From positions 1,691,001 through 1,755,000 of the forward strand of contig NZ_CP087999.1 of the NCBI RefSeq assembly GCF_021044625.1: 64,000 nucleotides of DNA, written 5' to 3'. Of this stretch, positions 3,033 through 16,252 are shown in pieces (the stretch's first letter is position 1; each line of letters begins with the position of its first letter). Made by a program: the position numbers and the translations under genes. The stretch is from Geomonas sp. RF6 (GTDB lineage Bacteria > Desulfobacterota > Desulfuromonadia > Geobacterales > Geobacteraceae). Under the pieces are notes generated by a model, which did no database searches, was not told the origin of the DNA, and saw only the letters and a list, made by a program, of their open reading frames with translations.

Positions 3033-4325
3033 CTAGTTCCCCCTGCCGTGCCGGTATTCCACGACCGGCTCCCTTCTCCCCGAACCCGCCTGCTTCGGGC
3101 GTCCCTTGGCAAAGGGTGCGCCCTTCTTGCGGGGATCGCCAAAGGGGCGCCCCTTGCGGGGGGCGTTGCCGGAGGTGCGGCGCAACTGCCGGGTCGGCTC
3201 GAGCCCCGGGATGACGTGGTGCGGCAACGACTCCCCGGTGTACTTCTCGATCCTGTCCAGATACGCCACCTCGTTGAAGGAGCAGAAGGAGATGGCCACG
3301 CCGGAGGCGCCGGCACGGCCGGTCCTGCCGATGCGGTGCACGTAGTCCTCGGCGAACTTCGGCAGGTCGAAGTTGATGACGTGGCTGATCCCGGAGACGT
3401 CGAGGCCGCGGGCGGCTACGTCGGTGGCGACAAGGAGGCGCACCTTGCCGCGGCGCATATTGACGATCGTCCTGTTGCGCGCGCCCTGGCTCATGTCGCC
3501 GTGCAGCGCCGCTGCGGCGTGCCCCTGGGAGTAGAGCTCCATCGCCAGCTGGTCAGCGCCCGTCTTCGTGGCGGAGAAGATAATCGCCTTCGTCAGGTTG
3601 ATGTCGGAGATCAGGTGCTGCAGGAGGCGGTTCTTGTGCCTGATGTCGTCGGTCACGTGGAGGCGCTGCTCGATCTGCGGCTTCGTGATCTGCTGCGGGG
3701 CCACGTCGATGCGCTCCGGCTCGGTCAGGAGCCGCTTGGCGAGCTTCGCCATGGCGTCGTCCATCGTCGCGGTGAAAAGCATCGTCTGGCGCGCCTCCGG
3801 GGCGGCGGCGGCGATCTTGTCCACGTCCTCGGAGAAGCCCATGTCGAGCATGCGGTCCGCCTCGTCCAGGACGAGGAGCTCCAGGCGGGAGAGGTTCATC
3901 CTGCCGCGCTCGAGGTGGTCGATAAGGCGCCCGGGGGTGGCCACGATCAGGTCGACCGGCGCCGACAGCAGGGCGAGCTGCTCACGGTACGGCATGCCGC
4001 CGAGGATGGCGCCGCTTCTCACCCGCATGAACTTCCCGTAGGCGCGCACCGCGTCGGTGACCTGGTTTGCGAGCTCGCGGGTCGGGGTCAAGACGAGGAT
4101 GCGGGGACCTTTGCCGCGCGCAGTGGACGGGACGAGGAGGCGCTGCAGCGCGGGGAGTACGAAGGCGGCGGTTTTGCCGGTGCCGGTCTGCGCCGTGCCG
4201 ATCAGGTCCTTCCCGGCCAGCGCCAGCGGTATCGCCTGCTCCTGGATCGGGGTGGGGTCGGTGTAGCCGCGGGCGGCGATGGCTTTGAGGATCGGCTGGG
4301 CAAGGTTCAACGTTTCAAAAGACAT
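3033..4325 (-). CDS. rhlE: DEAD-box ATP-dependent RNA helicase, RhlE type
   Basis: Unwinds structured RNA in ribosome assembly or mRNA decay. I chose the ATG at 4325 (MSFETLNL), which has AGGAG upstream; a longer frame adds 28 unconvincing residues. From that start (430 residues) the protein shows the Q-motif, Walker A AQTGTGKT at 45-52, PTREL at 81-85, DEAD at 154-157, TAT in place of SAT at 185-187, and HRIGRTGRAG near 333. The C-terminal 60 residues are a basic, Gly/Pro/Lys-rich tail typical of RhlE proteins and likely bind RNA. A dyad at 2956-2980 (GGTCCGC/GCGGACC) follows the gene but has no T-run. Confidence 0.93.
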   Translation of the reverse strand: MSFETLNLAQPILKAIAARGYTDPTPIQEQAIPLALAGKDLIGTAQTGTGKTAAFVLPALQRLLVPSTARGKGPRILVLTPTRELANQVTDAVRAYGKFMRVRSGAILGGMPYREQLALLSAPVDLIVATPGRLIDHLERGRMNLSRLELLVLDEADRMLDMGFSEDVDKIAAAAPEARQTMLFTATMDDAMAKLAKRLLTEPERIDVAPQQITKPQIEQRLHVTDDIRHKNRLLQHLISDINLTKAIIFSATKTGADQLAMELYSQGHAAAALHGDMSQGARNRTIVNMRRGKVRLLVATDVAARGLDVSGISHVINFDLPKFAEDYVHRIGRTGRAGASGVAISFCSFNEVAYLDRIEKYTGESLPHHVIPGLEPTRQLRRTSGNAPRKGRPFGDPRKKGAPFAKGRPKQAGSGRREPVVEYRHGRGN

Positions 4326-4679
4326 GGAATTCCTTTTCTCCTGGGGGAAAAACGGCGCATCCTCCTCGCGGAATTGGGAGGAGCACGACGGCCGAAATGA
4401 ATGAGGCAAAAAAAATAAGAAGCCGGTCGCACGAGGGCGTCTGCGCCACTGCGGTGATCGGGGGCAAAGAATCTATGACCGGCAAGGTACATCGTTGCCA
4501 ACCATAGCTATGCCGCATTTCTCTTGGGGATTTCTTGAATGCGAGGGGTTGGATCGATGGGGGGGAGCACCGGCTCCCGTATGGGGTCTGTCAGTCAGCC
4601 GCACATTATTACAACAGCGCCAGGTGAAATGCAAGAGAAAAAGAGCTTTCTCCACTCCACCCCCAAAAGCCCCTTTTTC
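4326..4679. other. Intergenic stretch upstream of the RNA helicase gene
   Basis: This 354-bp gap lies between the 5' end of the minus-strand helicase gene and the 3' end of pyruvate kinase. I find no coding frame with a convincing start. There is a short perfect hairpin, GGGAGC-ACCG-GCTCCC, at 4563-4578. The helicase promoter and a long leader presumably lie here, but I could not fix a -35/-10 pair with confidence. Confidence 0.4.
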
Positions 4680-6122
4680 TCAGAAGACCTCGTAGTACCA
4701 CCCGGTGCCGAGCTTGTACACCCGCATCATGTTCGTGGAGCCGCGCGCCTCCATCGGGATCCCCATGATGATGACGATGAGGTCCCCCTTGCGGAAGCCG
4801 TTTTTGAGGAGGGTTTCCTCCACCATGGGGATCAGGTCGTCCGCCCCCCCCAGCGCACCGAGAGGCTGGCTGCGCACCCCCCACCAGAGGGCGAGCCTGC
4901 GCTGCACCTCGGTGCTGGCGGTGAAGGCGATGATCGGGAGCTGCGGCCGGAACTTCGACAGGAGGCAGGCGGAGCTCCCAGACTGGGTCATGACCACGAT
5001 GGCGCTTGCCTTCAAGGTAGCTGCCGCCTGGCACGCCGCGCCGGCGACCGCGGAGGCGACGTTGTTGCTGTAGGAGAGGGGGCGCGGAGACTCCCTCCAC
5101 AGCTCGGCGTGCTCCACGTCCACCGCCACGTTCACCATCGTCTGCACCGCCTGCAGCGGGTAGGCGCCGGCGGCGGTTTCACCGGAGAGCATGACGGCGT
5201 CGGTGCCGTCCAGTATGGCGTTCGCCACATCGGAGGTTTCCGCCCTCGTCGGGCGCGCGTGGCTGATCATCGACTCCAGCATCTGGGTCGCAGTAATGAC
5301 CGGCTTCCCTGCCTCGTTGCACTCCCGGATGATCCTCTTTTGCACCAGCGGCACCCGCTCCGGGTGGAGCTCCACCCCCAGGTCGCCGCGCGCCACCATG
5401 ATGGCATCGGACACCGCGAGAATCTCCCTGAAGTTCTTCAGCCCCTCCGGCTTCTCGATCTTCGCCACCACCGGAAGGTTGGAGCCCTGCTCGTACATGA
5501 TCCGCTTCAGCCGCTCCACATCGCTTCCCCGGCGCACGAAGGAGAGGGCAACGTAGTCGAAGCCGGACTGCAGGATGAAGGAGAGATCCCCCAGGTCCTT
5601 CTCCGAGAGGGAGGGGGCGGAGACGTCGACGCCGGGAAGGTTGATCCCCTTGTTGTTCTTGAGGATCCCCCCCTCCACGACGCGGCAGCGCACGTTCTCG
5701 CCGGAGACCTCCAGCACCTTCAGCTCCATGAGGCCGTCATCGAGGAGTATGCGCGCCCCCGGCTTCACGTCCCTCGGAAGCCCTGCATAGACGGTGGAAA
5801 AGAGGTTGTCCCGCCCGAGAATTTCGCGGGTGGTGATCTGCACCGTCTCCCCTTTCACCAGGGGCATCTGCCCCCCTTCCATATGCCCCGTCCTGATCTT
5901 TGGCCCCTGCAGGTCGGCAAGGACTGCCACCGCCCGACCGAGCCGCTGCGAGACCATGCGCACCCGCTGCAGGAGCTCCCCCTTCTCGGCGTGCACCCCG
6001 TGGGAGAAGTTCATCCGGAAAACGTCCACCCCCGCCTCGATGAGGGCCGCGATCATGCTCTCGGAGGAGCTGGCGGGGCCGAGGGTGGCGATGATCTTCG
6101 TCTTTCTCTTCGTGGTTATCAT
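4680..6122 (-). CDS. pyk: Pyruvate kinase
   Basis: Cytosolic glycolytic enzyme converting phosphoenolpyruvate and ADP to pyruvate and ATP. The 480-residue product has the usual bacterial length. It opens KTKIIATLGPASS, has the substrate-contact segment MNFSHG, DLQGPKIR, the AVSDAIMVARGDLGVE active-site loop and the signature ITATQMLESMI. The C-terminal allosteric domain (about 350-480) is intact. The HU gene lies upstream on the same strand, separated by a strong terminator, so pyk likely has its own promoter in 6123-6249. Confidence 0.96.
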   Translation of the reverse strand: MITTKRKTKIIATLGPASSSESMIAALIEAGVDVFRMNFSHGVHAEKGELLQRVRMVSQRLGRAVAVLADLQGPKIRTGHMEGGQMPLVKGETVQITTREILGRDNLFSTVYAGLPRDVKPGARILLDDGLMELKVLEVSGENVRCRVVEGGILKNNKGINLPGVDVSAPSLSEKDLGDLSFILQSGFDYVALSFVRRGSDVERLKRIMYEQGSNLPVVAKIEKPEGLKNFREILAVSDAIMVARGDLGVELHPERVPLVQKRIIRECNEAGKPVITATQMLESMISHARPTRAETSDVANAILDGTDAVMLSGETAAGAYPLQAVQTMVNVAVDVEHAELWRESPRPLSYSNNVASAVAGAACQAAATLKASAIVVMTQSGSSACLLSKFRPQLPIIAFTASTEVQRRLALWWGVRSQPLGALGGADDLIPMVEETLLKNGFRKGDLIVIIMGIPMEARGSTNMMRVYKLGTGWYYEVF

Positions 6123-6249
6123 GTCCGCCTCACGGGTGCTCCCCCGGCGGCACTGTCCGGGGATCGGCGTCTGTTTCTCATGAGTTTCTCGGAACTACAA
6201 GTATCGTAGCAGAGGGGGGTGGCAAACTCAAGGGGGGCGCAATAACGAA

Positions 6250-6273
6250 AAAACCCCGCAGCTGCGGGGTTTT
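6250..6273. terminator. Bidirectional Rho-independent terminator
   Basis: A perfect palindrome AAAACCCCGCAG-CTGCGGGGTTTT with A-run and T-run flanks. It sits just downstream of the minus-strand HU gene and upstream of pyk, and should end HU transcription. Confidence 0.9.
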
Positions 6274-6299
6274 TCTGTTTGTCTATATGTGGGGAGGGA

Positions 6300-6581
6300 T
6301 TACTTGCCGGAAGCGATGGAGTCCTTCAGCGCCTTGCCCGGACGGAACTTCGGCACCTTGGCGGCTGCGATATTGATCTCGCTACCGGTCTGCGGGTTTC
6401 TGCCGGTGCGGGCCTGGCGGTCGGAGACCTCGAAGCTTCCGAACCCGACGAGGGTAACCCGGTCGCCGTTTTTCAGCGCCTCGCTGACACTGTTGATGAA
6501 AGCGCCGACGGCCTTCTCGGCCGCGCCCTTAGATAGATTAGCCGATTTCGCTACTGCATCGACGAGTTCTGCTTTTGTCAT
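6300..6581 (-). CDS. hup: Histone-like DNA-binding protein HU
   Basis: Small dimeric nucleoid protein that bends DNA without sequence specificity. From the ATG at 6581 ([14 protein letters not shown]) it is 93 residues, standard HU length. A strong GGAGG lies eight bases upstream and fixes this start over an upstream in-frame ATG at 6608. The DNA-binding arm signature [21 protein letters not shown] is present at about 46-66. It has its own sigma-70-like promoter and a strong terminator, so it is monocistronic. Confidence 0.97.
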
Positions 6582-6619
6582 GTCTAACCCTCCTTTTCTT
6601 ATGTGCAAAAATTTAAGTC

Positions 6620-6647
6620 ACTATAACCATAAATTTTTCCTTTGCAA
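6620..6647 (-). promoter_or_regulatory. Sigma-70-like promoter of the HU gene
   Basis: On the minus strand, TTGCAA (6647-6642) and TATAGT (6625-6620) are 16 bp apart, about 40 bp before the HU start codon. Confidence 0.7.
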
Positions 6648-6804
6648 GGCTTTATTTGCACCGGAAATGATTTTATCCCGCGCCAGGAGCGGTTCTAGCG
6701 CCCATCCCCCCCTCCGCGAAGCCCCTTCCGGCGTTTCCGGAAAGCTTCCTCCACTGCGGACCCGCTCGCCTCTCTTTTCGCCGGAAAGACGCAAAAACAG
6801 ACGG

Positions 6805-9318
6805 TTAGAGAACCGGCTCCTGAAGGGGCGCCTGAGCGGGGACCGGGACCGGTTCCGGGTCGTAGGTGGACGGTTCGGTGCCGCTTATGAAACACTCCTG
6901 CACAGCACCCGGAGTCCCCTCCCGCGCCAGCCGACCGGTGCGCGGGTCGATGAGGGCGAAGGTGACGTCGTTAGGGGGCTCGAAGCGCTTCGAGGGGATC
7001 GCCGCCAGCGCCCGCTGCATGAACTCGGTCCAGATCGGCGCAGCCGCCTGCCCCCCTGACCCGCCGGCACCGAGGCTGCGCTCCTGGTCGTAACCGACCC
7101 AGACGCCGGCCACCAGTTGCGGAACGAACCCGACGAACCAGGCGTCCTTCATGTCGTTCGTGGTGCCGGTCTTTCCCGCGACGGGGCGGCCAAGGGCCCG
7201 GGCCCGCCCGCCGGTACCGCTGGTGACGACGCTCTCCATGAGGTTCGTCATGATGTAGGCGACGTCGGGGGAGATGACCTGGTTCGGAGCCGCTGCACCG
7301 CGTCTCGCGGGTGCCGTGCCGGGGGCGGCGATACGGGCGGTGGCTGCCGCCCCCTCTCCGGTCAGGGATGCGTCCGCATCCTCGCTCGCCTCCGGGGGGG
7401 CGCCGGCGCTGGAGATATCGGTGAAGACCGGGATCTTCGGCGGGTTCATCTCCTCGAGCACCGCGCCGTCGCGATCGAGGACCTTCGTCACGAAGTACGG
7501 CGCCATCCGGTATCCTCCGGAGGCGAAGACCGCATAGGCGCTGGTGAGCTCAAGGGGAGTGACGCTGGAGGAGCCGAGCGCCAGAGTGAGGTTCCCGGCC
7601 AAGGGCGAGGTGATCCCCAGCCTCTTCGCACACTCGATGGCAGTCCTCACGCCGATGCTCTCCAGGATTTTCACGCTCACCACGTTTATGGAGTTGGTGA
7701 GCGCCGTGCGCATGGTGACCGGCCCGCGGTAGATGTTGTCGTAGTTGCGCGGCTTCCACGTCTTCTCCTGCCCGCTGTCGTACTCCACCTGGGAGTCCTG
7801 GATCACGGTGGCAGGGGTCATCCCCTTTTCCAGCGCCGCGGCGTAGATGACCGGCTTGAAGGCCGAGCCGGGGTTCCTGCGCGCCTGGGTAGCCCTGTTG
7901 AACTGGCTCTTCCTGAAGTCATATCCGCCGACAAGGGCGCGCACCCCGCCGCTTTGCGGGTCGATCGCCACGAGGGCCGCCTGGGTCTCCGGCGTCTGGT
8001 CCAGGGTAAAGACCGCTCCAACCCTGTTCTGGTCCGTCTGCTGCGCCACCACCTCGAGGACTGCACCGAGGGCGATGGCACGCTTCCCTTCCGGCTTGCC
8101 GTAGCTGTTCACGAGCTCGAGGCGCCCGGCCCAGTCCATCCCCTTCCTGTCGAGGATCCCGGTGCGGTCGCCGACCCGCACGGTGAGCTCCCCCTTCGCC
8201 GGGTCGGCCTTGATGACCACCCCCTGGTAGCCCCCACCCTGCTTCAGCGTCACGGTGTCGATCTGGTCCTCCACCTTCTTGCAGAAGGGATCGACCTCCT
8301 CTTCCGTGAGGTAGCGCGCGGCGCCGCGGAACCCCTGCCTCTTGTCCAGCGCCTTCAGCCCGTTCACCACGCCGTCGTAGGCCGCCTTCTGCATCTCCGC
8401 GTTCATGGTGGTGTAGATTCTCAGGCCGTCCTTGTAGAGACGCTCCTCGCCGTACTTCTCCTCCAGTTGCTGGCGGACCTGCTCCAGGAAGTAGGCGCTC
8501 TGCTCGGGATTCACCTTCTTCAGGCTGTGGATCGCCACCGGGAAGGCCTTCGCGTGGTCGGCTTCGGCCTGGGTGATGTACCCTTCCTTCACCATCCTCT
8601 CGAGGACGTAACCCTGGCGCTCCTTCGCGCGGTCCAGGTGCTTGATCGGGGAGTAGGCGTTCGGTGCCTTCGGGAGCCCGGCCATCATCGCCATCTCCGC
8701 CAGGTTGAGCTGGTCCACCTCTTTCCCGAAGTACGTTTCCGCGGCAAGCTGCACCCCGTAGGCACCGGCGCCGAGGTAGATCTGGTTCAGGTAGATGTAC
8801 AGGATCTCGTCCTTGGAGAGGCGCTCCTCCATCCTCTTCGCCAGTATCGCTTCCTTCAGCTTCCGGGAGAACTTCTTCTCGGGGGTAAGGAGCATCGACT
8901 TCGCCACCTGCTGGGTGATGGTGGAAGCCCCTTCCTTCTTTCTAAGGGACATGGTGTTCTTGAAGATGGCGCGGACGATCCCCAGGTAGTCGATCCCCTT
9001 GTGCTGGTAGAAGTTGCTGTCTTCGGCAGCGACAAAGGCCTGGATCAGACGCCTCGGGATCTTGTCCACCGGCACGACCGTGCGGCGCTCCAGGTAGAAT
9101 TCGCCGACGAGGCTGCCGTCCTCGCCGAAGACCTGCGACACGATCGGCGGGCGGTAGTCGGCCAGGCGGTCCACCTTCGGGAGCGCTCCGAGCAGGTAGA
9201 AGAAATATCCGAAGAAGGCGAGCACCAGGAGGGCGCCCCCGCCGAGCGTTATGCCAGCGAGAAGCTTCTTGCCGGACCCTTCTTTTTTCCTGCGCGGCCG
9301 AGCCTTGTACGTCTCCAT
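6805..9318 (-). CDS. Penicillin-binding protein 1A family, bifunctional peptidoglycan synthase
   Basis: Class A PBP, anchored in the inner membrane, polymerising glycan strands and cross-linking peptides in the periplasm. I start at ATG 9318 (METYKARPRRKK), since the longer frame lacks a ribosome site. The 837 residues contain one N-terminal membrane segment (about 20-45), a glycosyltransferase domain (EDSNFYQHKGID, then TITQQVAKSMLL) and a transpeptidase domain with SAFK (in RRNPGSAFKPVIYAAAL), SSV and KTGTTND. A Pro/Ala-rich low-complexity insert follows the SSV region. The C-terminus ends in a PVPVPAQAPLQEP tail. Confidence 0.94.
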   Translation of the reverse strand: METYKARPRRKKEGSGKKLLAGITLGGGALLVLAFFGYFFYLLGALPKVDRLADYRPPIVSQVFGEDGSLVGEFYLERRTVVPVDKIPRRLIQAFVAAEDSNFYQHKGIDYLGIVRAIFKNTMSLRKKEGASTITQQVAKSMLLTPEKKFSRKLKEAILAKRMEERLSKDEILYIYLNQIYLGAGAYGVQLAAETYFGKEVDQLNLAEMAMMAGLPKAPNAYSPIKHLDRAKERQGYVLERMVKEGYITQAEADHAKAFPVAIHSLKKVNPEQSAYFLEQVRQQLEEKYGEERLYKDGLRIYTTMNAEMQKAAYDGVVNGLKALDKRQGFRGAARYLTEEEVDPFCKKVEDQIDTVTLKQGGGYQGVVIKADPAKGELTVRVGDRTGILDRKGMDWAGRLELVNSYGKPEGKRAIALGAVLEVVAQQTDQNRVGAVFTLDQTPETQAALVAIDPQSGGVRALVGGYDFRKSQFNRATQARRNPGSAFKPVIYAAALEKGMTPATVIQDSQVEYDSGQEKTWKPRNYDNIYRGPVTMRTALTNSINVVSVKILESIGVRTAIECAKRLGITSPLAGNLTLALGSSSVTPLELTSAYAVFASGGYRMAPYFVTKVLDRDGAVLEEMNPPKIPVFTDISSAGAPPEASEDADASLTGEGAAATARIAAPGTAPARRGAAAPNQVISPDVAYIMTNLMESVVTSGTGGRARALGRPVAGKTGTTNDMKDAWFVGFVPQLVAGVWVGYDQERSLGAGGSGGQAAAPIWTEFMQRALAAIPSKRFEPPNDVTFALIDPRTGRLAREGTPGAVQECFISGTEPSTYDPEPVPVPAQAPLQEPVL

Positions 9319-10737: not shown

Positions 10738-11733
10738 ATGGTAGTGCCGATCCTATCGAAGACCGATCTGGAGCAGGCCAAAGCCCTCATCACGGCCAGC
10801 GGCCTCTCTTTCGATCCCCCTTTCGACGACCTGGTGGGGATCTTCCACAGTGGTGCGCCTGAGGCGGTCGGTGCCCGCAGCGGACGCCTCCTGAAGATGC
10901 TCGCGGTGCGGCCGGAGAGCCAGGGGGGTTCCCTCCTCGCCCAGATCGTCACCGAGCTCGTGCGCCGCGGCTACGAGCACGGCGTCGATTCCTTTTTCAT
11001 CTTCACCTCCCCGGCCCACGCCCCCTCGTTCCAGTCGTTGAACTTCAACCTTCTCGTCACCCACAAGAAAAGCGCCCTCATGGAGTACGGCAACGGCCTC
11101 TCCCGCTACCTCGAGGAGCACCGGCACCTGGTGAATCCGGGGAACAATGGCGCGATAGTGGCCAACTGCAACCCCTTCACCCGCGGGCACCGCTACCTCG
11201 TGGAGGAGAACGCGAGAAGGGTGGACCACCTCTACCTCTTCGTCGTGCGGGAGGAGAAATCGCTCTTTCCCTTCGAGAGCAGGATCGAGATGGTGCGGCG
11301 GGGTGTGGCGGAGCTGGAAAACGTGACGGTGCTGGAGACCTCCTGGTACGCCATCTCGAGCGTCACCTTCCCGACCTATTTCCTGAAGGAAGGGGACCCG
11401 GGGCACCGGGAGCAGATGGAGCTCGACCTGCAGCTCTTTGCCAGCCGCATCGCCCCCTTTTTCGGAGTCGTGCGCCGCTTCGTCGGCACGGAACCTTTCT
11501 GCGCGACAACCGCCGCCTATAACGCCGCGATGCACCGGGTCCTCCCGGCGTGCGGCATAGAGGTCATCGAGGTGGAGCGGGAACGCGCGGGGGATCTCGC
11601 CATCAGCGCCTCCGCGGTGCGCAGCGCCCTCCTGGACGGCGAGCTCGACTCCCTTGAGAAGCTCGTTCCGGAGTCGACGCTGGGTTATCTCCTTTCCGAC
11701 GAGGGGAGAGAGGTGTGGGAGAGAAGGCGATGA
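10738..11733 (+). CDS. citC: [Citrate (pro-3S)-lyase] ligase
   Basis: Activates citrate lyase by acetylating the thiol of the prosthetic group on the acyl carrier subunit, using acetate and ATP. The 331 residues comprise an N-terminal GNAT-like domain (about 1-130) and a nucleotidyltransferase domain with the signature NPFTRGHRYLVE near 144, plus the late SASAVRSAL motif. Length is close to the usual ~340. It is the first gene of the cit operon; its TGA overlaps the citD ATG as ATGA. Confidence 0.93.
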   Translation: MVVPILSKTDLEQAKALITASGLSFDPPFDDLVGIFHSGAPEAVGARSGRLLKMLAVRPESQGGSLLAQIVTELVRRGYEHGVDSFFIFTSPAHAPSFQSLNFNLLVTHKKSALMEYGNGLSRYLEEHRHLVNPGNNGAIVANCNPFTRGHRYLVEENARRVDHLYLFVVREEKSLFPFESRIEMVRRGVAELENVTVLETSWYAISSVTFPTYFLKEGDPGHREQMELDLQLFASRIAPFFGVVRRFVGTEPFCATTAAYNAAMHRVLPACGIEVIEVERERAGDLAISASAVRSALLDGELDSLEKLVPESTLGYLLSDEGREVWERRR

Positions 11734-11993
11734 AGATAGCGAGAAAGGCGCAGGCCGGAACGATGCAGTCGAGCGATCTCATGGTCTTTCTCGAGCCGGC
11801 GGAGGAGCTTGCCGTGGAGATCGAGAGCACGGTGAAGAAGCAGTTCGAGCACCTGATAAGGGCGAAGGTCGCCGAGGTCCTCTCCCGTCACGGGGTCGAG
11901 GCGGGGCTCGTGCGCATCACCGACCGCGGTGCGCTGGACTACGCCATTGAGGCGCGTCTGGAGACGGCGCTCCAGCGGGGTGCGGAGGGGTAG
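11730..11993 (+). CDS. citD: Citrate lyase acyl carrier protein (gamma subunit)
   Basis: An 87-residue acyl carrier protein that holds the 2'-(5''-phosphoribosyl)-3'-dephospho-CoA arm. I start at MKIARKAQAGTMQSSD. In this frame Ser14 is at the position known to carry the prosthetic group in characterised CitD proteins, which supports the start over an in-frame ATG at 11715. The start codon overlaps the citC stop, implying coupled translation. The next gene begins directly after the stop codon. Confidence 0.93.
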   Translation: MKIARKAQAGTMQSSDLMVFLEPAEELAVEIESTVKKQFEHLIRAKVAEVLSRHGVEAGLVRITDRGALDYAIEARLETALQRGAEG

Positions 11994-12479
11994 ATGGAAG
12001 GTCTCTGGTACAAGGAGTGCAATCAGGGAAGGCGCTTCCTGATAAAGATCACCCCCGGGGAAAACCTCACCACCCGTCTCCTGCAGTTCGCCCATGTCGC
12101 CGACGTCCGCTACGCCGTCATCGTCTCCGCCCTCGGGAGCGTGAAAAACGTGAAGCTGCGCGGCATCAAGACCGGCGCGAAGCTCCCGATCACCACACCG
12201 CGGGTGCAGATCCACGAGATAGAGGGGCCTCTCGAGCTCCTGAGCCTCACCGGGAACATCATGCCCGGATCGGGGGAGACCGACCTTCTCGACTGCCACT
12301 TCCACATCATGCTCGGGAAGTCCTCCGGTGAGGTCGTGGGGGGGCACCTCTACGAGGCGCAGGTATTCGCCACCTGCGAGATCATGCTCTCGGAGCTCAC
12401 GGTGGAAGGGGTGGAGCGGCACGTATCGAAGATCGGCGGGATCCCCACCATCTACATCGACGAGGAGAGAGCGCAATGA
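11994..12479 (+). CDS. PPC-domain (DUF296) protein inside the citrate lyase operon
   Basis: 161 residues, a single PPC/DUF296 domain: a cupin-like trimeric fold seen in plant AT-hook proteins and in bacterial proteins of mostly unknown function. Typical features are VRYAVIVSALGSVKNVKLR, the IHEIEGPLELLSLTGNI strand pair and GGHLYEAQVFATCEIML with conserved His and Cys. There is no AT-hook and no signal peptide. It sits exactly between citD (adjacent stop and start) and citE (ATGA overlap), so it is co-translated with the lyase. That argues for a role in lyase assembly or control, or for binding a related metabolite. No function is proven. Confidence 0.8.
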   Translation: MEGLWYKECNQGRRFLIKITPGENLTTRLLQFAHVADVRYAVIVSALGSVKNVKLRGIKTGAKLPITTPRVQIHEIEGPLELLSLTGNIMPGSGETDLLDCHFHIMLGKSSGEVVGGHLYEAQVFATCEIMLSELTVEGVERHVSKIGGIPTIYIDEERAQ

Positions 12480-13396
12480 CAGACTCGAAGCTGCGCCGCT
12501 CCCTCCTGTACGTCCCGGGGAACATGCCCTCCATGCTGCAGAACATCCCTGTCTTTGAATGCGACGGGGTCATCGTCGACCTGGAGGACGCCGTCCCCCT
12601 GGCGGAGAAGGACGCAGCGCGGCAACTGGTGCGCCGCTTCCTGGAGAACTACACGGAGCGGAACAAGGAAATCCTCGTGCGCATCAACCCCCTCGACACC
12701 CGCTGGGGGTACGAGGACCTGAAGACGGTCCTCCCGGCGCTCCCGGACGGAATCCGCCTCCCGAAGGCGGACACCCCGGAGATCGTGGAGCGCCTCGACA
12801 CGCTCCTCACCGAGTTCGAGGAGGAGCTCGAGCTCCCGATCGGCCGCTTCGGCGTCCTCCCCTCCATAGAGAGCGCGCTCGGGGTCATCAACGCCACCGC
12901 CATCAGCCGCTCCTCGTCTCGCATATTCGCGCTCGCCTTCGGGGCGGAGGACTACACCGCGAGCATGGAGATCGAGCGGACGAAGGGGGGGGAGGAGCTC
13001 TTCAACGCCCGCACCCAGATCCTCTGGGCCGCGAAGGCGGCGGGAATCCAGGCGATAGACACCATCTTCGCAGACGTCTCCGACATGGAGGGGCTAAGAG
13101 CGGAGACCGAGCTCGCAAAGAGGCTCGGCTACACCGGGAAGTCACTGGTGAACCCCCGCCAGATCGAGGTCGTGCACGACGTCTTTGCCCCGAAGGAGGA
13201 AGAGGTCGCCTACGCCCTGGAGGTCATCGAGGCGATAAAGAGGGCCCGCCTCCTGGGGACCGGAGTGATCTCCTTAAAGGGGAAGATGATCGACGCCCCC
13301 GTGGTGAAGAGGGCGGCCCGGGTGCTGCGGACGGCCTACGCCCACGGCATGACCGATACCCCGGTGGACGAGGAGGTCATCCATGGCGCTCAATAG
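12476..13396 (+). CDS. citE: Citrate lyase beta subunit (citryl-ACP lyase)
   Basis: Cleaves citryl-ACP to oxaloacetate and acetyl-ACP. The 306 residues show the HpcH/HpaI-like TIM-barrel pattern: RRSLLYVPGN, VIVDLEDAVPLAEKD, ILVRINPLDTRWG, IRLPKADTPE, LPSIESALGV and FGAEDYTASM, with the acidic Mg2+ ligands in these segments. Its ATG overlaps the preceding stop. The last 14 bp overlap citF, whose ribosome site AGGAGG lies inside citE. Confidence 0.94.
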   Translation: MTDSKLRRSLLYVPGNMPSMLQNIPVFECDGVIVDLEDAVPLAEKDAARQLVRRFLENYTERNKEILVRINPLDTRWGYEDLKTVLPALPDGIRLPKADTPEIVERLDTLLTEFEEELELPIGRFGVLPSIESALGVINATAISRSSSRIFALAFGAEDYTASMEIERTKGGEELFNARTQILWAAKAAGIQAIDTIFADVSDMEGLRAETELAKRLGYTGKSLVNPRQIEVVHDVFAPKEEEVAYALEVIEAIKRARLLGTGVISLKGKMIDAPVVKRAARVLRTAYAHGMTDTPVDEEVIHGAQ

Positions 13397-14921
13397 CCTC
13401 GGCAGGGAGATCCCGGAGAGCTATGCCGGCAGGCGCCTCGTCCCCTACTCGGACCCGTGGTCGCTGAAGCCGGCGGGGCAGATCGCCGCGCGCGAATTGA
13501 GGCGCCGAAACCCGGGGGAAAAGAAGCTTCTCTCGTCGCTCAGGGAGGCGGTCGACGCGGCGGGGTTGCGGGACGGGATGACGATTTCCACCCACCACTC
13601 CCTGAGAAACGGCGATTTCCTCCTGAACATGGTGGTGAACACCCTGGCGGAAATGGGGCTGAAGGGGATCTGGATCGCCTCCTCGTCGGTCCATCCGGTG
13701 CATGCGGAGATCATCCCCCACATACGGAGCGGCGTCATCGCCGGCTTCGAGTGCGGCGTGAACGGCCTTATCGGCGAGCTCGCCAGCAAGGGGGAGATCT
13801 CCTGCCCGATCATCGTCCGCTCCCACGGGGGGAGGGCCCGCTCGGTCATCGAGGGATCGGTGGGGATTGACTGCGCCTTCATCGCCGCCCCCTGCTGCGA
13901 CGAGTACGGCAACCTGAACGGCATCTTCGGCCCTTCCGCCTGCGGGAGCCTCGGCTACGCGCAGGTGGACGCGCTGCACGCGCGGGTCGTCGTCGCGGTG
14001 ACGGACAACCTGGTCCCCTACCCCGCGATCCCGGTGAGCATCCCGCAGGCCCTGGTCGACCACGTCGTACTGGTGGAGCGGCTCGGGGACCCGGCGAAGA
14101 TCGTCTCCACCACGACGCGCATCACCACCGATCCGGTCGGTCTGCAGATCGCGAACTTCGCGGCGCAGGTCATCGACGCCTCCGGCTACCTCGCCGACGG
14201 CTTCTCCTTCCAGACCGGCAGCGGCGGCATATCGCTCGCGGTGGCGGACCGGGTGCGCCAGCTCATGCGCCGGCGCGGCATAAAGGGGAGCTTTGGCTGC
14301 GGCGGGATCACCGGGTACTTCGTGGAGATGCTGGAGGAGGGGCTCTTCTCGGCGCTTCTGGACGTGCAGTGCTTCGACCTCGACGCGGTGCGTTCCATGG
14401 GGAGAAACCGCACCCACCAGGAGATCAGCGCCGACATGTACGCGAGCCCCTTCAACGCCGGGGCGGTGGTGAACAGCCTCGACTGCGTCATCCTCGGCGC
14501 CACGGAGGTCGACAGCGACTTCAACGTGAACGTGAACACGGAGTCGAACGGCTACCTCCTGCACAATACCGGGGGGCACAGCGACACCGCGGCCGGAGCG
14601 AAACTCTCCATCATCGTCGCCCCCTCCATCCGGGGACGGCTCCCGATCGTGAAGGACAGGGTCACCACCGTCACGACCCCGGGGGAAACGATCGGTGTGG
14701 TGGTGACGGAGCGGGGAATCGCCGTGAACGATCGCCTCCCGGAGCTCAGGAAGGAGCTCGCGGCGAGGAAACTGCCGGTGAAAGAGATCGGCCAATTGCA
14801 GCAGGAAATTTACCGTGTCACCGGCACCCCGAGAGCTCTGGAGTTCGAGGATGACGTAGTGGCCCTCATCGAGTACCGGGACGGGAGCATCATCGATGTC
14901 GTTAGACGTGTTAGAGAGTAG
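13383..14921 (+). CDS. citF: Citrate lyase alpha subunit (citrate:acetyl-ACP transferase)
   Basis: Exchanges acetyl for citryl on the acyl carrier subunit. At 512 residues it matches the usual ~510. It has GMTISTHHSLRNGD near 60-75, GSVGIDCAFIAAPCCDEYGNLNG, FQTGSGGISLA and the late LHNTGGHSDTAAGAK, all characteristic of this coenzyme-A-transferase-like subunit. It follows citE with a 14-bp overlap and overlaps citX by 26 bp. Confidence 0.95.
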   Translation: MALNSLGREIPESYAGRRLVPYSDPWSLKPAGQIAARELRRRNPGEKKLLSSLREAVDAAGLRDGMTISTHHSLRNGDFLLNMVVNTLAEMGLKGIWIASSSVHPVHAEIIPHIRSGVIAGFECGVNGLIGELASKGEISCPIIVRSHGGRARSVIEGSVGIDCAFIAAPCCDEYGNLNGIFGPSACGSLGYAQVDALHARVVVAVTDNLVPYPAIPVSIPQALVDHVVLVERLGDPAKIVSTTTRITTDPVGLQIANFAAQVIDASGYLADGFSFQTGSGGISLAVADRVRQLMRRRGIKGSFGCGGITGYFVEMLEEGLFSALLDVQCFDLDAVRSMGRNRTHQEISADMYASPFNAGAVVNSLDCVILGATEVDSDFNVNVNTESNGYLLHNTGGHSDTAAGAKLSIIVAPSIRGRLPIVKDRVTTVTTPGETIGVVVTERGIAVNDRLPELRKELAARKLPVKEIGQLQQEIYRVTGTPRALEFEDDVVALIEYRDGSIIDVVRRVRE

Positions 14922-15387
14922 TATCCTGGCGGCCCGCGACAGGCGCCAGGCCCAGCTGGAGAGTTTTGCCCCGCACTCGCCGTGCCTCATCATGCTCTCC
15001 CTCAACATTCCGGGACCGGAAAAGAGCGGTGAGCGAGCCCAGCGCCTCTTCAACTGGGCGCTCACCAGGCTGGCGGACGAAGCCCCGGTGGAGCTCCTTT
15101 TCAGCGGGACGGACCCCCTCGGCCCGTACGCCCTGTACCAGACCCGCCTCACCCCGCGCGGCGCGAAGGAGAAGGCGGTCGCCATCGAAGGCTCGGAGCC
15201 TGCGGGGCGCCTCATAGACCTCGATGTCTACGATACGAGCGGAAGCGCCTTCGGCAGGAGCTTGCTGGGGCTGGCGCCGCGGCGCTGCCTCGTGTGCGGA
15301 GAGAGCGCGGCGGAGTGCATGCGCCTCAAACGGCACGAGACACGAATTTTACAGGAGGAGGTAGATGCCCTCATTGATGCACTGTGA
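14896..15387 (+). CDS. citX: Apo-citrate lyase phosphoribosyl-dephospho-CoA transferase
   Basis: Transfers the prosthetic group precursor to apo-CitD. 163 residues, close to the ~180 of other CitX proteins. It begins with ARDRRQAQLESF, contains LSLNIPGPEKSG and the hallmark GRLIDLDVYD, and ends RRCLVCGESAAECMRLKRH with the Cys-rich region expected in CitX. It overlaps citF by 26 bp upstream and citG by 23 bp downstream. Confidence 0.9.
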   Translation: MSLDVLESSILAARDRRQAQLESFAPHSPCLIMLSLNIPGPEKSGERAQRLFNWALTRLADEAPVELLFSGTDPLGPYALYQTRLTPRGAKEKAVAIEGSEPAGRLIDLDVYDTSGSAFGRSLLGLAPRRCLVCGESAAECMRLKRHETRILQEEVDALIDAL

Positions 15388-16252
15388 ATCGCAACGACTG
15401 GCCCAGAACCTGCTGCGCGGCGCCTTCCTGGAGCTCTACCTGACCCCGAAGCCCGGTCTCGTCGACCTCGCCGACAGCGGCTCCCACAAGGACCTCTCCG
15501 TCTCCCGCATGGAGGAGTCCCTCACCATCATCTCCGGCTATCTGACGGAGATGGAGCGTTCCCTCGACGCGGGGGAGGATCTGGAGGACCAGATAACGCT
15601 CGGGATCGCCACGGAGCACGCGGTCATGCAGCAGGTCGGCACGAACTGCCACCGCGGCTTCATCTTTCTGAGCGGCCTCCTCCTCAGTGCGAGCCGCCTC
15701 GCTCCCGGGCGCGACGAGCGCGCCCTCTCCGGCGCGGTCGCCTCCCTCGCGCTGCAGCTCTTTGCCAGGACCTCCGACCACAAGAGCAACGGCAGCCGCG
15801 CCCGCAAGCTCTACCAGGTCGGGGGGATCAAGGCTGAGGCGCTGCGGGGGCTCCCTTCCCTCTTCAACGAGGCGCTCCCGGCCTATCGCGCGGAGATCGC
15901 TGCAGAGGGAAACCGCGGCAGCGCGACCTTCGCCATGCTCGCCCGCCTCATGCAGACGGTGGAGGACACCACCGCGCTGCACCGCTGCGGCACCGTGGGG
16001 CTGGCGCGGCTGCGCGAGGACGGCAGGATGCTGGAGCGCCTGATCGCGGAGCGCGACGACTTCATGACCTTTCTCACCAACCTGAACCGTCGCTACATGC
16101 AGATGAACCTCACCATGGGAGGGGTCGCCGACCTCCTCGCTCTCGCCTTCGCCTGGCTGAGCCACACCGGCGAACTCGACCTCGCCACCCGCGGCGACTC
16201 CAAGGTCCACACCACCCCCATCTGGCCCACCCCCTGCACAGCGACCTTCTGA
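15365..16252 (+). CDS. citG: 2-(5''-triphosphoribosyl)-3'-dephospho-CoA synthase
   Basis: Makes the prosthetic-group precursor from ATP and dephospho-CoA. 295 residues, full length. TPKPGLVDLADSGSHKDLS near the N-terminus and the later TNCHRGFIFLSGLLL are family hallmarks. A strong CAGGAGG lies five bases before the ATG. It is the last cit gene and is followed by a hairpin terminator. Citrate uptake and oxaloacetate decarboxylation genes are absent from the surrounding sequence. Confidence 0.92.
   Translation: MPSLMHCESQRLAQNLLRGAFLELYLTPKPGLVDLADSGSHKDLSVSRMEESLTIISGYLTEMERSLDAGEDLEDQITLGIATEHAVMQQVGTNCHRGFIFLSGLLLSASRLAPGRDERALSGAVASLALQLFARTSDHKSNGSRARKLYQVGGIKAEALRGLPSLFNEALPAYRAEIAAEGNRGSATFAMLARLMQTVEDTTALHRCGTVGLARLREDGRMLERLIAERDDFMTFLTNLNRRYMQMNLTMGGVADLLALAFAWLSHTGELDLATRGDSKVHTTPIWPTPCTATF

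Follow-up and report, generated by a model that had tools for sequence, protein, structure and literature searches.

Citrate lyase operons and PPC proteins

Citrate lyase, the PPC/PCC proteins (PF03479, DUF296), and the relation of the PPC fold to that of acetolactate decarboxylase are already known. The product of citrate lyase, oxaloacetate, is a β-keto acid. Classic citrate lyase operons, such as those of Enterococcus, Escherichia coli, Streptococcus, Melissococcus, and Desulfobacterota g145, contain the same types of lyase and cofactor genes as the operon described here, and the gene order is mostly the same. In contrast to this operon, they have no PPC gene, citE is located right behind citD, and the encoded CitF proteins are about 46-53% identical.

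PPC proteins form trimers, and the plant-type AHL DNA-binding proteins carry an AT-hook next to the PPC domain. AF0104 (2H6L) and PH0802 (2DT4) are PPC proteins with the same fold as predicted for the protein of this operon (Z 18.4 and 19.1, respectively) and with the same HxH...GGH residues. Acetolactate decarboxylase (PF03306) is related in fold, and its HLH and GGH motifs align, but it is larger, constitutes a separate Pfam family, and is 11-15% identical in structural alignments. The human protein PTD012/C11orf54, a 313-residue chain, is a weak structural match. In a 2025 commentary (PMC12435205), PTD012 is described as a 3-dehydro-L-gulonate decarboxylase that decarboxylates a β-keto acid, has a three-His zinc site, is related in structure to acetolactate decarboxylase, and also hydrolyses p-nitrophenyl acetate. 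Two decarboxylases of β-keto-type acids therefore share the fold, and hydrolysis is also within its scope.

A literature search for a connection of PPC/DUF296 with citrate lyase found none in the library searched, which excludes most subscription journals; the papers listed included work on plant AHL proteins.

The cit operon of Geomonas sp. RF6

The window, i.e. the whole analyzed stretch of 64,000 nucleotides from Geomonas sp. RF6, contains an operon with the gene order citC, citD, PPC, citE, citF, citX, and citG, which spans positions 10738-16252 (Table 1). The original prediction placed a PPC gene between the genes for the acyl carrier and the beta subunit, with no gap on one side and an overlap on the other, and this arrangement was confirmed: the TAG of citD ends at 11993, leaving a gap of 0 bp, and the TGA of the PPC gene and the ATG of citE share the ATGA at 12476-12479. 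The likelier start of citD is the ATG at 11730, which overlaps the citC stop, rather than the GTG at 11715. For the cit neighbors, NCBIfam agrees with Pfam, with citE and citG remaining under the equivalog cut-offs.

Table 1. Features of the citrate lyase operon of Geomonas sp. RF6 (positions in the window)
Feature	Position	Strand	Evidence and remarks
citC, citrate lyase ligase	10738..11733	+	Pfam Citrate_ly_lig 221.7 bits; NCBIfam TIGR00124 266 bits
citD, acyl carrier subunit	11715..11993 (listed from GTG 11715)	+	PF06857 97.6 bits; TIGR01608 83 bits
PPC (PF03479) protein, 161 aa, ATG start	11994..12479	+	PF03479 92.9 bits; HxH...GGH = H102, H104, H118; citrate-type loop at about residues 56-74
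citE, beta subunit	12476..13396	+	PF03328 197.8 bits; TIGR01588 337 bits, below cut-off 443
citF, alpha subunit	13383..14921	+	PF04223 571 bits; TIGR01584 626 bits
citX, holo-ACP synthase	14896..15387	+	PF03802 126.8 bits; TIGR03124 108 bits
citG, triphosphoribosyl-dephospho-CoA synthase	15365..16252	+	PF01874 160.7 bits; NCBIfam MdcB and CitG models below cut-offs

The PF03479 match of the PPC protein lies well above the cut-off of 25 bits and covers positions 1-116 of the 117 profile positions; a Pfam scan of all 161 residues revealed no second family at E ≤0.001. Comparison of the gene with five relatives resulted in dN/dS values of 0.08-0.19, which identifies the frame as a real gene under purifying selection. 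No further hit of the protein was found at E ≤0.001 in the genome of Geomonas sp. RF6, which consists of one contig of 5.26 Mb. With citD, citE, citF, the cofactor genes, and a PPC gene before citE, the locus is a citrate lyase operon of the PPC type. In the CitF tree, it is placed closest to Citrifermentans bremense and Geomonas species.

Linkage of the PPC gene to citrate lyase

Within the class, PF04223 (CitF) and PF03479 (PPC) were searched in the same 277 genomes, of which 102 contain at least one PF03479 match anywhere. The search for CitF resulted in 56 match rows. Each of the 46 CitF matches with at least 500 bits is preceded, on the same strand, by a PPC match; including one fragment near a contig end, this applies to 47 of the 56 rows, with a spacing of 1109-1135 bp between the two domain matches. 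The nine rows without PPC, which were compared by eye with the rest of the match table, comprise seven CitF-like proteins (362-463 bits), one of which is represented by an additional piece, and a match of 21 bits. Of the seven weak loci, three (L058-L060, with L058 being a 3.5-kb contig) encode CitE- and CitF-like proteins of 35-43% identity. In the fetched sequences of these loci, matches for citC, citD, citX, and citG are absent, suggesting that they are probably not citrate lyases. Seventeen PPC loci were fetched from the class; in each of them, the PPC gene is located immediately before citE, and in 16 it follows citD; the exception, L055, has the order citD-citC-PPC-citE.

A profile search of titled genome records, which share some genomes with the loci fetched from the class, resulted in 68 PPC loci. 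The 35 relatives with at least 50% identity (L070-L104) are all situated among cit genes, which distinguishes this citrate type from other PPC proteins; citD is on the same piece in 34 cases, and for the 35th locus (L100), citC and citD are found on another contig of that genome. Among the 33 relatives with at most 45% identity, none has a cit match nearby. Thus, the proposed search for an enrichment of PPC genes beside cit genes was strongly positive, and the PPC gene is therefore tied to citrate lyase. Chance or a local insertion is ruled out by a linkage that extends over 277 genomes and several phyla.

The neighborhoods of PPC genes that are not of the citrate type are mixed, and one neighbor in L105 has no Pfam match. 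In two Marinimicrobia loci (L109 and L129, about 3400-6817), the PPC gene lies, as judged by eye, between alaS-like and RidA-like genes. In four cit loci from Pseudomonadota (L101, 3393-5618; L102, 1402-3627; L103, 3399-5618; L184, 9006-6781), a gene for a monomeric isocitrate dehydrogenase is located just upstream of citD, the usual place of citC; the genomes of L101-L103 have one citC match elsewhere in each. In Malonomonas rubra (L097, 1051-4563), genes for a methylmalonyl-CoA-decarboxylase-type alpha subunit, a biotin carrier, and OAD_beta directly precede citC.

For a count that starts from CitF outside the class, 141 genomes of the Propionivibrio family (around G655), 120 of an Acidobacteria-MAG order (G659), 117 of a Myxococcales-MAG order (G661), and 47 of an Eisenbacteria-MAG phylum (G660) were sampled. 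CitF of at least 69% identity is encoded in 12 of these genomes, and a PPC gene adjoins in ten (G655, G1159, G659, G1226, G1215, G1245, G661, G1375, G1373, and G660), corresponding to an unbiased count of six out of eight because the four sampling centers had been chosen for having the PPC gene. The first of the two remaining genomes, G1108, has the order citD-citE-citF-citX-citG without PPC, and no PPC match is present in the whole genome. The second, G1370, has a broken locus (L191), which lacks citD, PPC, and citE and in which a truncated citF directly adjoins a cut citC; this genome has no PPC match either, and the break is perhaps a misassembly.

Classic cit operons without a PPC gene

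The original prediction further stated that known cit operons run without a PPC gene. This holds for the classic type, represented by 11 genomic and five plasmid loci, but not in general, because a whole clade carries the gene. At the 11 genomic loci of the classic type (L148-L157 and L185; CitF 48-53% identical), no PPC match was found; citD, citE, and citF are present together in nine of them, and citF is the sole cit gene shown for L148 and L155. Two CitF-like loci at 44% identity (L192 and L193) have no PPC match, and four further loci (L222-L225; CitF 42-46%) lay outside the PPC search.

CitF is encoded in 91 plasmid records in PLSDB, all below 60% identity, and the best plasmid relative of the PPC protein is 32% identical. 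Six plasmid loci were hand-picked from 25 of the 91 records. In the five annotated plasmid cit operons viewed, no PPC gene is listed in the PLSDB gene tables, which are incomplete; in these five operons, citE starts at most 5 bp from the citD end or overlaps citD. The E. coli control genome has matches for both PF04223 and PF03479, and the E. coli plasmid cit operon viewed is without PPC.

The classic operon of a member of the Propionivibrio order (L149, 1558-3929) runs on into genes for an acetolactate decarboxylase and an acetolactate-synthase-type TPP enzyme. In this case, a relative of the PPC fold is encoded beside a PPC-less operon.

History of the gene in the CitF tree

The midpoint-rooted CitF tree was calculated from 61 of 66 gathered rows; L080, L188, and L193 were left out as too short, and L090 and L155 were removed by the in-frame-stop filter. 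All PPC-bearing operons are found in one CitF clade with a support of 100/100. Gain and loss of the PPC gene require three changes on this tree. As G1108 is placed deep inside the PPC clade, its lack of PPC is most simply explained by loss. The simplest history comprises one gain, spread of the gene together with the operon, one clear loss, and one broken copy.

According to record titles, many of which belong to MAGs, the clade includes members of five phyla: Thermodesulfobacteriota, Myxococcota, Acidobacteriota, Eiseniibacteriota, and Pseudomonadota. A MAG labeled 'Neptunomonas' (L089) is placed among Desulfuromonadales and may be misbinned. Within the citrate lyase operon, the PPC gene is a component specific to this clade and is inherited together with the operon. 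Mere hitchhiking is unlikely, since the gene has been kept during extensive transfer, apart from one clear loss and one broken locus.

Fold, conserved residues, and the citrate-type loop

The predicted model of the PPC protein has a mean pLDDT of 88.7, with the lowest values within the domain at residues 61-70 (mean 62). It matches seven PPC entries with Z 16.2-19.1, including 2H6L, which is titled 'Metal-containing Protein AF0104'. The next matches are acetolactate decarboxylases (Z 7.4-9.7; Foldseek E from 4.6e-4), followed by a weak row for the zinc protein PTD012 (Z 5.3), whereby values below 8 possibly reflect a mere common arrangement according to a warning of the structure-comparison tool. 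Foldseek rows for thioesterases (E ≥0.3, TM about 0.2) were set aside as noise.

The relation to acetolactate decarboxylase is one of fold only, with no match of the PF03306 profile at E ≤0.001. The PPC protein has the HxH...GGH residues of acetolactate-decarboxylase-like metalloenzymes. In an hhalign comparison with a profile of 11 acetolactate decarboxylases of the class, the HLH and GGH motifs are aligned, and the basic loop of the PPC protein, starting with R56, is opposite the RSVPxQ stretch of acetolactate decarboxylase. This alignment is support rather than proof, because its E value of 0.0019 refers to a single comparison and its probability is only 14%.

Residues were compared in 54 aligned PPC proteins, consisting of 30 of the citrate type (29 of the 35 cit-operon loci and Geomonas sp. 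RF6) and 24 of the 33 others. H102 and H104 are conserved in all 54 proteins and H118 in 51, with Q in the remaining three (L101-L103). In contrast to these general residues, R13, I58, R70, C128, and S145 are fixed in all 30 citrate-type proteins and occur in only 1, 0, 1, 1, and 2 of the 24 others, respectively. K59 is present in 28 of 30 citrate-type proteins versus 1 of 24, and R56 is variable, with 23 of 30 carrying it. Furthermore, the citrate type has a longer loop with IKxGAKxPITxxR; 23 of the 24 other PPC proteins have a gap in place of the loop around P65-I66. The lone exception is a PPC protein from SAR202 (L105, 5938-6444; 34% identity), which is encoded without cit genes nearby.

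Possible functions of the PPC protein

The PPC protein probably performs or controls a step right after citrate cleavage. Operon context had led to the suggestion that it stabilizes or senses the prosthetic group or the lyase complex; from the fold, the conserved metal-type residues, and the operon comparison, a small-molecule enzyme is at least as well indicated, with oxaloacetate as the most likely substrate. Based on the operon comparison and on the decarboxylase precedent of PTD012, we tentatively favor a metal-dependent oxaloacetate decarboxylase specific to this lyase clade. With slightly more reserve, the citrate-type PPC proteins in general may be regarded as a candidate new family, namely small oxaloacetate decarboxylases that depend on a metal, need no biotin, and serve one lyase clade.

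In such a reaction, a protein with an acetolactate-decarboxylase-like fold would act on the lyase product. A divalent metal on H102, H104, and H118 (Q in a few proteins) would chelate the 2-keto acid oxaloacetate, and the basic loop with K59, R70, and often R56 and K63 would grip a carboxylate. A bound metal is documented for relatives, namely for 2H6L by its title and for PTD012 in the commentary. Decarboxylation would convert oxaloacetate into pyruvate, and citrate cleavage would be pulled forward.

The PPC protein would then replace the products of the genes for malic enzyme, OadA, or FAH-type proteins that accompany numerous classic cit operons; relatives of malic enzyme and of FAH are capable of decarboxylating oxaloacetate. 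At least one of these genes is found near 9 of 17 classic loci, or near 4 of 12 without the five classic loci that supplied the search queries, with the OadA match of L230 being only 32% identical. None of them is found near 41 PPC-type loci, some of which share genomes (the CitF proteins of L190 and L084 are identical). The flanks covered by this comparison vary in length, and many of the PPC-type loci stop at contig ends. Several observations count against an oxaloacetate decarboxylase. An OAD_beta gene is located near 2 of the 41 PPC-type loci, one of them being L097, G1108 lacks PPC and has none of the searched decarboxylases alongside, and the same decarboxylases are likewise missing at 8 of the 17 classic loci. 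The replacement of H118 by Q in three loci, the variable R56, and the low hhalign probability also belong here. In addition, an oxaloacetate decarboxylase would be replaceable or movable, so the almost invariable place before citE is explained at least equally well by a lyase-bound role.

One lyase-bound role would be that of citrate lyase deacetylase (EC 3.1.2.16), for which we know of no assigned gene. A paper from 1981 reportedly describes this activity in Rhodopseudomonas gelatinosa and R. palustris, which supports the less probable but real alternative that the PPC protein is a thioesterase removing the acetyl residue from the CitD prosthetic group and switching the lyase off when citrate is depleted. 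Where citrate synthase and the TCA cycle operate in the same bacterium, such an off switch would halt a futile cycle, and organisms with a complete TCA cycle would require one. The place next to citE and the restriction to one lyase clade suit a protein acting on the lyase, and the fixed C128 and the basic loop could serve thioester and phosphate binding. The hydrolysis of p-nitrophenyl acetate by PTD012, a protein of PPC-like fold, points in the same direction, but the two physiological activities of the fold known to us are decarboxylations, for PTD012 according to the commentary (PMC12435205) and for acetolactate decarboxylase by its family name. In 399 genomes of the Propionivibrio order, there are three long CitF matches, of which only one, that of Propionivibrio itself, is of the PPC type.

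A non-catalytic assembly or regulatory subunit, which would bind CitD or CitE or sense citrate, glutamate, or the prosthetic group, appears slightly less probable again. It would agree with the almost invariable association with citE within a single lyase clade, and both the residues fixed only in the citrate type and the low pLDDT of residues 61-70 despite their conserved sequence suggest a binding surface. However, the His residues common to the enzymes of this fold are kept in nearly all aligned PPC proteins, and a scaffold would not need them.

A DNA-binding regulator of the cit operon, as implied by the name 'PPC domain-containing DNA-binding protein' on 6 of the 15 plasmid relatives listed, is very improbable considering the single PPC domain, the mid-operon place of the gene, and closest folds that are PPC proteins and then decarboxylases; unlike in AHL proteins, no AT-hook-like sequence was seen by eye in the 161 residues.

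Significance

The operon of citrate lyase, a textbook enzyme, was regarded as complete, and one branch of the bacterial citrate lyases carries a conserved additional component. The nearly exceptionless retention of the PPC gene in a clade that extends, by record labels, over five phyla implies that this clade needs something that classic lyases obtain elsewhere. Bacterial PPC proteins thereby gain a concrete pathway and, with oxaloacetate and acetyl-CitD, candidate substrates. If the PPC protein is indeed an oxaloacetate decarboxylase, it would provide, to our knowledge, the first enzymatic activity of a bacterial PPC/DUF296 protein, and the decarboxylation of β-keto acids would be the shared chemistry of the fold.
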